NCBI RefSeq assembly: GCF_010365805.1
Contig: NZ_CP048386.1
Span: 186,001-250,000, forward strand
Direction: 5' to 3'
DNA: 64,000 bases
Source: Spiroplasma sp. BIUS-1
GTDB taxonomy: Bacteria > Bacillota_I > Bacilli_A > Mycoplasmatales > Mycoplasmataceae
Below, in pieces: positions 33,727 through 58,358 of this stretch. The translations under genes and the position numbers were made by a program. The notes below the pieces were generated by a model that was given only the letters and a program-made list of their open reading frames with translations, had not been told where the DNA came from and made no database searches. The first letter of the stretch is position 1; every line of letters starts with the position of its first letter.

Positions 33727-33993
33727 ATGTTATTGACAGGATTGAGTAATGGAACTTTTTGAACTTTATTTTCATTTGGTATTTTAGGACTTATTTTAGG
33801 GGTATGCTCTACAATATTTTTTATTAATTTTAAAAGAAGAAAGAAACTTGAAAAGGATTCTTTTAAAGTTACAACAACAAAGTTTAAAATTTTCAGGTTT
33901 TGACAGTATTACGGAATTTTCACATTAGCTATGGTGGGCTATTTAATGGCTTTGATTTTTTTAGGAATTTGTCTTGGTGAAATCATAGGATAA
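33727..33993 (+). CDS. Small two-helix membrane protein
   Basis: An 88-residue protein with two hydrophobic helices (about 10-30 and 63-85) joined by a basic loop (FKRRKKLEKDSFK). No family recognised. It starts 2 bases after the MupG stop, so it is probably cotranslated with MupG. Confidence 0.7.
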
Positions 33994-34060
33994 ATATTTT
34001 TAATCATTATAAATTGTAATTTTTTTCCAAAAAATAAAAAAATTTATGGAAAAAAAATGC

Positions 34061-34086
34061 TTTTTTTTTTTTTTTTTTTTTTTTTT
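34061..34086 (+). repeat. 26-T homopolymer upstream of PTS IICB
   Basis: An uninterrupted run of 26 T, preceded by A8 and TGC, and followed directly by TATATT (34086-34091) and TAAAAT (34091-34096). It could be the tail of a terminator for the mupG unit (A8-TGC-T8 stem), a spacer within the IICB promoter, or both. Such runs change length readily in mollicutes. Confidence 0.8.
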
Positions 34087-34096
34087 ATATTAAAAT
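34086..34096 (+). promoter_or_regulatory. Candidate -10 region of PTS IICB behind the T tract
   Basis: TATATT at 34086-34091 or TAAAAT at 34091-34096, 30-41 bases before the ATG. The -35 position falls inside or just upstream of the T tract. Confidence 0.45.
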
Positions 34097-34126
34097 ACAA
34101 ATGAGAGGAAAGAAAAGGAAAACAAA

Positions 34127-35980
34127 ATGAACGATAAAAGCGTACATTTAACTAATGAAAAAAAGTTAAAGACAAAAAGAATGAAAAGTTCGGACAATGG
34201 TAGCAGTAGTTGAAGTAAATTTTTAACAATGCTTCAAGAGCTTGGAAAAACTCTACAGTTTCCAATCGCTGTGTTACCGTTTGCTGCTATTTTAAATAGG
34301 TTTGGAGCTCTGGGTATTCAATTTTCAACAGATTCTGCTGGTGAAATTACAAATCAAGTAGGATATTGAATATCTTTAATAATTCAAAAACCCGGTGCTA
34401 TACCATTTGATAATCTTGCCTTATTATTTGCGATAGGTTGTGCTTTTGGTTTAGCGAAAGATCATCGAGGAGAAGTCGCCTTGGTAGCTGTGATATTTTA
34501 TTTATCGCTTGCTGCATTAACAAGTGAAGGAACTCTTCCAAGTATGATTTATGGGAATGTTTTGACTCAAAAACAAGAAGCGGTATCTTGGGTTGACCCA
34601 ATAAATAACACAACTCACTGAAGTCAAGGCGGAAGTGGATTATGGTCCCAGTTACTTTATGTTGTTACAAAATCACAGTATAAACAAGGAGCTTCTGCTG
34701 TTCCAGGGTTGGTAGATGGAGCTACATATATTACTGGAGCTACTTATGTTTTAAATATAGGGGTTTTAGGAGGAATAGTTGCAGGATGTATGTCAGCATA
34801 CTTCTACAATAGATTAAAAGATATTAAATTGCCTCCTGCATTATCATTTTTTGGGGGTAGAAGATTTGTCCCTATGGTTGCCTTAGCTGCAGCTATACCA
34901 ACGGCTTTTGCATTTGCAATAGTATGACCTTGAATACAATTAGGATTAATTAAATTCGGAACAGCAGTTGCTGATCCAACAAATCCTGCAGTTGCTATTC
35001 CAGGAACTACTGTATATGCAATATTAAACAGACTATTATTACCATTTGGTTTACACCAAATTATGAATACATTCTTCTGATTCCAAATGCCTGTGACAGG
35101 TACTCCAATAGAAGTGATAACTGGAGCGCCAATCGGCTCAGGAGAAATAATTGTAAATGGTGATATTAATGCATTTACTAAGGGATTAAATACAGCTGGT
35201 TTATTCCAATCAGGTTTCTTCCCAATTATGATGGGTGGATTACCAATGGCTGCTGTAGCTATGATTATGACAGCAGATAGAGAAAATAGAAAAGAAATGG
35301 CAGGATTCCTTGGGGGAGTTGCTGGTGTTTCATTCTTGTCAGGAATTACTGAACCTTTAGAATTCTCATTTGTATTTATTGCACCTGTTTTATTAGGTAT
35401 TCACGCAGGATTAACAGGTTTATTTATGGCAATAACAACTTCTATGAGAATTCAAATAGGATTCGGATTTAGTGCTGGATTTATTGACTATGCAATATCA
35501 TTTGCACAATCATGAGGATTAGCAAATCAAGCAAGTAATAGTGGATTTCAAACAGCAATTGCAAATCCGTTATGAATATTAGTATTGTCTGCAGCTGCAG
35601 GAGCAACATACTTCTTCGTATTCTACTTCACAATTAAAAAAATGAATCTAGCAACACCAGGAAGAAATGTTGACGGAACAACATTATCAACAGCAAGTAA
35701 ATCATCTACAAAAAAAGAATCTTCACAAAAAGGAGACAGATATGATGAGATGGCTTCAAAAATAGTAGAAGCTATTGGTAAAGATAACTTTGTAAGTATT
35801 GATAATTGCGCAACTAGATTAAGACTTGTGCTTAAAGATAATGCCATTATAGATGATGCACTAATTAAATCATCAGGAACTTATGGTATAAAACGTTTAG
35901 GAACTGAAAGTTTGCAAATAGTTGTAGGACCTGATGTTGAACATGCTGCTAATGCACTTAAAAAATTATTAAATAAATAA
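34127..35980 (+). CDS. PTS glucose/N-acetylglucosamine-type IICB
   Basis: A 617-residue two-domain permease. The IIC part (about residues 35-510; LQFPIAVLPFAAILNRFG, NRLLLPFGLHQIMNTFFWF, the GITEPLEF sugar-site motif) precedes a IIB domain with Cys561 in DNCATRLRL. IIC-IIB order fits glucose or GlcNAc carriers rather than the IIB-IIC maltose or MurNAc carriers. No IIA domain is attached, so a separate glucose-type IIA is needed. Two rare TGG codons occur (34589, 34643). GGAAAAC lies before the ATG. Confidence 0.93.
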
Positions 35981-49856: not shown

Positions 49857-49936
49857 GTTGCTAGTTTCAACCGCACTTTGTATGTCAATAAGTAGTTTGA
49901 AAAACAACTCACATGCAAGGCGAGTCTAGACTGGAG
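49857..49936 (+). ncRNA. L21-type leader RNA upstream of rplU
   Basis: About 80 bases of G/C-richer, structured sequence lie between the -10 box and the rplU ribosome site. GTTG...CAAC forms a first hairpin, and CTC/GAG with flanking bases a second near 49908-49926. Position and features fit the ribosomal protein L21 leader of Firmicutes; I did not check a covariance model. Confidence 0.6.
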
Positions 49937-49944
49937 GAATAAAG

Positions 49945-55924: not shown

Positions 55925-55930
55925 TATAAT
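55925..55930 (+). promoter_or_regulatory. -10 box of the TPP riboswitch gene
   Basis: TATAAT placed so transcription would start near 55937, at the first bases of the riboswitch. Confidence 0.65.
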
Positions 55931-56036
55931 GAAAAAGGCAGAGGTAGCTATTAAATAGCTTGAGAAATACTCTTAGAACCTGATCTAGTTAATACTAGCG
56001 TAGGAAGTCCTTTAAAAGACAAATTCTGCTTTTTTC
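55931..56036 (+). promoter_or_regulatory. TPP riboswitch (THI element)
   Basis: Conserved THI parts are present in order: the 5' P1 strand (GGCAGAGG), TTGAGAAATACTC (CTGAGA-type loop, near 55960), GAACCTGATCTAGTTAATACTAGCGTAGGAAG (from about 55973), and the 3' P1 strand TCTGC. P1 (55932-55942 with 56025-56035, one G-U pair) runs straight into six T. TPP binding would stabilise P1, so the P1-T6 unit may itself act as the terminator. It controls the transporter gene at 56050. Confidence 0.92.
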
Positions 56037-58323: not shown

Positions 58324-58358
58324 CTAGTTTAACTAGTTTTTTTTTTTTTTTTTTTTTT
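58322..58358 (+). terminator. Terminator after frr with a 22-T tail
   Basis: AACTAG (58322-58327) and CTAGTT (58333-58338), then an unbroken run of T from 58337 to 58358. The next -10 is about 40 bases further, so the run is a terminator tail rather than a promoter spacer. Confidence 0.75.

Follow-up and report, generated by a model that had tools for sequence, protein, structure and literature searches.

A run of 26 T lies just upstream of a gene for a sugar-transport permease (PTS IICB) in Spiroplasma sp. BIUS-1. The likeliest interpretation is that this run serves, or served until recently, as a promoter spacer like those of the vlp genes of Mycoplasma hyorhinis, and it appears to belong to a class of such spacers that recurs across the genus. 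In its specific form, the reading towards which we lean holds that the PTS gene's own promoter has this run as its spacer and that the length of the run, varied by slippage, controls transcription. The window analyzed here comprises 64,000 nucleotides (bases 186001–250000) of a closed genome of 915,326 bases (G000).

The sequence-only reading had described a 26-T tract at 34061–34096 that touches a TATATT/TAAAAT −10 region, and inspection of the locus bore this out. Exactly 26 T occupy 34061–34086 of the plus strand, bounded by C (34060) and A and followed by ATATTAAAATAC; the remainder, to 34096, takes in two overlapping −10 candidates on the same strand, TATATT (34086–34091) and TAAAAT (34091–34096). 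The ribosome-binding site AAAAGGA (34113–34119, plus strand) precedes by 7 nt the ATG at 34127, which is 40 nt past the end of the run. Because this gap is only about 40 nt, a promoter near the PTS gene must use the run. Directly before the run stands ATGC (34057–34060, plus strand), which comparison with relatives identifies as a degenerate counterpart of their run-abutting, −35-like TTGC box. The distance from ATGCTT (34057–34062) to the −10 candidate is 23 bp for TATATT or 28 bp for TAAAAT, and the run spans enough sequence to contain a spacer plus a −35 position. No TTGACA-like −35 element was present at a normal distance at the locus. A simple consensus promoter scan of 33900–34300 also found no promoter, an expected result because the spacer here is out of the scan's range.

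The downstream gene (34127–35980, plus strand) encodes a glucose/GlcNAc-type PTS IICB of 617 aa; UGA is read as tryptophan in the window's genes. The best PTS model for this protein was the GlcNAc-specific IIBC family TIGR01998, at 413 bits (below the curated cut-off of 553.2), and two Pfam domains scored above their gathering thresholds: PF02378 (PTS_EIIC, 178.9 bits) and PF00367 (PTS_EIIB, 46.1 bits). Upstream of the run, an 88-aa membrane protein (33727–33993, plus strand) weakly matches the MPN207a family of PTS accessory proteins (“near_gluc_PtsG”), and in relatives, too, the end of its gene precedes the run. Still further upstream, all on the same strand, are genes for MupG and for lactose/cellobiose-type IIB and IIC. 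A search of genome contigs for the locus returned only two relatives, both distant (46%). Elsewhere in this genome, an A17 run (G000:C1:182790-182806) precedes another glucose-type PTS gene (183103–185175); near the counterpart of that gene, S. monobiae (G008) and G017 have layouts of the kind TTGAC/TTG-A15/16-TATAAT.

We searched for the PTS protein in 20 genomes, with Spiroplasma cantharicola (G001), S. monobiae and S. floricola (G019) among the genus relatives, and compared the loci at which the accessory and PTS genes adjoin. Five orthologous PTS genes keep a run of T15–T18 at this place, with TTGC before it and a −10-like hexamer 15–17 bp away when TTGCNT is read as the −35 box. In S. cantharicola the arrangement is TTGCA-T17-ATACCAT (−10 TACCAT, 17 bp); in G004, TTGCA-T15-GTACTAT (TACTAT, 15 bp); in G009, TTGCA-T16-GTACTAT (TACTAT, 16 bp); in G002, TTGC-T18-CATAAT (CATAAT, 16 bp); and in S. 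monobiae, TTGC-T18-ATACAGT (TACAGT, 17 bp). G015 carries TTGC-T17-AATATAAG further upstream. The run was absent from this place in G017, G013, G018 and others, and was reduced to T10 in S. floricola and T9 in G005; G017, the closest relative, has an A17 further upstream. This comparison suggests an ancestral layout resembling an ordinary promoter with a T spacer, albeit one whose TTGC agrees with the −35 consensus at TTG only, and the sequenced genome looks like a stretched, decayed version of it.

The same architecture recurs well beyond this gene. The combination of TTGC and 14 or more T directly after it was found at 54 places in 13 of the 20 genomes; the reversed control pattern gave none. 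We read 30 of the 54 loci, and about 14 of these precede lipoprotein genes (with signal peptides ending in VVACG and similar). Others stand before PTS genes (at least three), before a single conserved SDR gene that has a leader (five), and before a glpF-like gene, resembling that of a glycerol facilitator, and an arcA-like gene, resembling that of an arginine deiminase, these last two being named by their N-termini, with no profile scan. Downstream of the run, a −10 element is enriched: at spacings of 13–19, the best −10 score over 29 non-redundant TTGC-T loci averaged 7.16, compared with 5.90 (sd 0.16) for shuffled downstream bases, and none of 500 shuffles reached the observed mean. In S. 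floricola, TTGA(C)-T16/17-ATAAT and a common leader precede each of about a dozen lipoprotein genes that are paralogues of one another. A mirror case occurs at 349712 of the BIUS-1 genome, where TTGAAA, poly-A, 17 bp and TATAAT precede the gene for a 1737-aa membrane protein. In G026, from a neighbouring genus, 15 of 38 runs have TTG before them, and 22 of the 38 have a TATAAT-like hexamer (at least 5 of 6 matches) within 12 nt after them (shuffles, mean 13.3). Enrichment of lipoprotein-like genes near runs is slight in BIUS-1 alone (within 130 nt of a run, 3 of 31 such genes vs. 14 of 861 ORFs), and thus the link to lipoproteins rests on the relatives. For the promoter class, the vlp-type idea is well supported by these sequence comparisons.

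A poly-A run after TTGC, kept between species, was also observed just upstream of a DNA-methyltransferase-like gene (G000:C1:577693-577710; G002:C1:616167), which makes that gene a candidate phase-variable modification enzyme.

The length of T26 is far beyond chance. In the whole 915-kb genome, A/T runs number 3187 at length 6, 1475 at 7, 411 at 8 and 13 at 9; there are none of 10–16, and then 21 of 17–27. Nineteen of these 21 lie outside ORFs, which make up 93% of the genome. Across the 20 genomes, 470 of the 615 A/T runs of at least 10 are at least 16 long, lengths to be read with the distrust that any assembly deserves for homopolymers above 15, the relatives having been assembled from Illumina reads; G002 has 29 runs of 15–19 and none of 10–14. 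We did not find mutS in any of the 20 genomes searched (a control was detected in 11 of 14), and slippage should therefore stay uncorrected. Run length alone, however, proves nothing about function, because terminators in this genus carry equally long T-runs. In addition to following terminator stems, such runs occur at convergent gene ends and form back-to-back TnAn palindromes. Since terminators and palindromes share these lengths, length is probably set by an equilibrium of slippage and not by promoter function. We also considered whether lengths of 16–17 reflect selection for promoter spacing only, and set the idea aside in view of the equally long terminators and palindromes.

Two further observations concern long runs of other kinds. 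Perfect TnAn palindromes (T15–18, then A16–21) are intergenic in several species and are possibly back-to-back terminators; examples are G000:C1:675527-675565, G002:C1:318993, 408209 and 454332, and G001:C1:475791. The window's other long run, a T22 at 58337–58358, stands directly behind a short stem that ends the preceding ORF and is of the terminator type.

Does T26, then, merely end a transcript? The run could be the U-tract of a terminator for the upstream operon (PTS IIC, IIB, MupG and the accessory protein) or could belong to an attenuator that precedes the PTS gene. The length of the tract would then drift neutrally or tune read-through, and expression of the PTS gene would depend on read-through or on a weak promoter with a −10 element only. 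We consider this explanation unlikely, but it is the likeliest of the alternatives. Spiroplasma intrinsic terminators have very long U-tracts of the same kind, placed, like T26, directly 3′ of an upstream gene. Many long T-runs in this genome lie directly behind perfect stems, as at 294277 (13 bp), 459387 and 519997 (9 bp each) and 455090 (7 bp). Terminator-type runs here measure 19–27, as T26 does, whereas plausible promoter-register runs are mostly 17–18. Moreover, an inverted repeat, TTTTCCA-N17-TGGAAAA, occupies 34023–34053. It is AU-rich and has a folding energy of −10.3 kcal/mol. Three weak pairs, which involve the TGC before the run, close the fold; its stem reaches the C preceding T26, as in a terminator. 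The dyad of G017 (G017:C1:216161), upstream of the orthologous PTS gene, folds to −12.8 kcal/mol and has T8 directly after it.

Against this, TTGC is kept in the five orthologues while a stem partner is not: there is none in G002, and those in G004 and G009 are poor. Shuffled versions of the 101-nt region fold just as well (z −0.07), and a scan for a G+C-bearing terminator found none at the locus. Unlike the intrinsic terminators of Spiroplasma, in which a perfect stem abuts the run, ATGC/TTGC intervenes here, with only the AU-rich dyad upstream. Elsewhere, most TTGC-T runs lack a stem upstream and have a gene start downstream. The dyad itself has another potential role. The same 31-bp dyad occurs twice more in this genome (G000:C1:167716-167746 and 758484-758514), upstream of gapA and of a gene for a 943-aa membrane protein; it was found in 6 of the 20 genomes, the control pattern giving none. 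This distribution makes it a candidate operator of a carbon-metabolism regulator. The dyad may act in a terminator or attenuator; equally, it may be an operator. As a separate observation, the lipoprotein arrays of S. floricola contain many identical terminators, GTTCCCCCCAAATTGGGAACG-T16 (G019:C1:602723, 629399, 662010, 804665 and others).

A less probable explanation is that the run belongs to a promoter but that its length is of little consequence: it would be a bent or UP-like element of a constitutive promoter, or else a generic T-rich −35 region there, and mutation bias would maintain such runs. Promoter-type and terminator-type runs share the two-humped distribution of lengths, a sign of mutational equilibrium. 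The SDR gene noted above is also pertinent. A conserved leader of 120–155 nt, lying behind TTGC-T16/17, precedes this gene (G000:C1:525800-526000 and relatives); Rfam contained no family for it. Rfam matches above gathering score elsewhere in the window were a TPP riboswitch (55930–56024) and a ribosomal protein L21 leader (49859–49937). We take G002 to be S. diminutum and its PTS orthologue to be the gene named nagE1. The expected position of SDIMI_v3c04970 (about gene 497), estimated by arithmetic on gene counts, would fit the SDR gene at 546.4 kb in G002. In G002, the PTS orthologue is behind TTGC-T18, and the SDR gene, which has a homologue in S. cantharicola, is behind TTGC-T17. By RNA-seq of S. 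diminutum, nagE1 ranked in the top quarter and the SDR gene sdr1 was highest, far above all others; sdr1 has a homologue in S. cantharicola (PMC5726471). The SDR gene behind the leader may be the one that S. diminutum expresses most strongly. That its leader keeps T16–T17 in several genomes, before a gene that is probably the top-expressed one (PMC5726471), is unlike a switch. If the nagE1, sdr1 and S. diminutum identifications hold, T17–T18 would be an ON length, and this expression would be indirect evidence that such a promoter works. Two facts speak for an effect of length: boxes flank the run at typical sigma-70 spacing, and TTGC-type runs measured 15–19 in all 33 loci read.

Very improbably, the count of 26 is wrong or atypical for a run that does exist, and the predicted OFF state is a sequencing error. 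Homopolymers longer than about 15 are difficult to call, and one group's Illumina-read relatives cluster at 16–17 whatever the kind of run, against 17–27 in this genome. The existence of the run, at least, is no artefact, since independent species carry one in the same position.

We return to the run as a promoter spacer. In M. hyorhinis, a poly-A tract lies in the vlp promoter, and insertions or deletions in it switch transcription (Citti and Wise 1995, as cited in PMC10502178). The Spiroplasma class resembles this system in having a homopolymer in the promoter region and lipoprotein families as its main targets. It differs in having T, not A, on the sense strand, in its TTGC/TTGAC box, and in occurring in a different order of Mollicutes. 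The sequence-only reading, which had invoked a vlp-like spacer, is partly supported: the relatives bear it out, but at the locus in the window it does not hold as stated. A homopolymer between −35 and −10 is found in the five orthologues and at about 30 other loci, and the orthologous spacers, at 15–17 bp, approach the 17 bp or so to be expected of a vlp-type promoter in its expressed state; in the window, the −35 side is the degenerate ATGC and the spacer is 23–28 bp, and the promoter is probably OFF or decayed. That reading had also contrasted a sugar carrier with the surface antigens switched by vlp. This is apt for the gene in the window, known here from sequence to be a PTS IICB and not a surface lipoprotein, but it does not extend to the class, which stands mainly before surface lipoproteins.

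Two other mollicute switches are instructive, as described or cited in later papers. According to Gaurivaud et al. 2004 (described in PMC3711806), the glucose PTS permease of Mycoplasma mycoides subsp. mycoides is turned ON and OFF through premature protein termination. The target, a glucose-type PTS permease in a mollicute, is of the same kind; the Spiroplasma locus, by contrast, would act on transcription through spacer length. At the vmm promoter of M. mycoides SC, the length of a dinucleotide repeat controls transcription of a surface protein (cited in PMC10502178). Control of transcription by repeat length is what we propose here as well, but with a homopolymer instead of a dinucleotide repeat and with another type of gene.

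How would such a promoter operate? The TTGC-type −35 box directly before the run and the −10 hexamer directly after it would constitute the PTS gene's own promoter, and replication slippage, in a cell lacking mismatch repair, would lengthen or shorten the run. With about 15–18 T, the boxes would be 15–17 bp apart and the gene would be transcribed. With 26 T and the box decayed to ATGC, the polymerase could not contact both elements, and the gene would be off or weak; the principle would be that of the poly-A spacer in the vlp promoters. We predict that the assembled T26 state is OFF or very weak because the box has decayed to ATGC and the spacer is 23–28 bp. The anatomy of the locus, its conservation in relatives and the genus-wide class of promoters are what we observed; we infer from them that T counts differ within living populations, that run length controls the PTS gene, and that the sequenced genome is in the OFF state.

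Discussions of phase variation in Mollicutes usually centre on the surface antigens of vertebrate mycoplasmas. The literature that we covered, which was incomplete, contained no description of phase variation, poly-T promoters or PTS genes of this kind in Spiroplasma. We tentatively suggest, with some doubt, a genus-wide contingency system of poly-T spacers (about 16–27 T, no mismatch repair) that would switch surface lipoproteins and carbon-source genes together. The latter would include PTS permeases and the glpF-like and arcA-like genes, such that metabolism and surface would be varied by one device. The gap in run lengths, with few of 10–15 and many of at least 16, offers a clean setting in which to study slippage in cells that lack MutS. 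If the proposal is true, bet-hedging in insect symbionts would be testable through T counts in reads, and a poly-T-spacer class in arthropod-associated Spiroplasma would couple nutrition to antigenic state.
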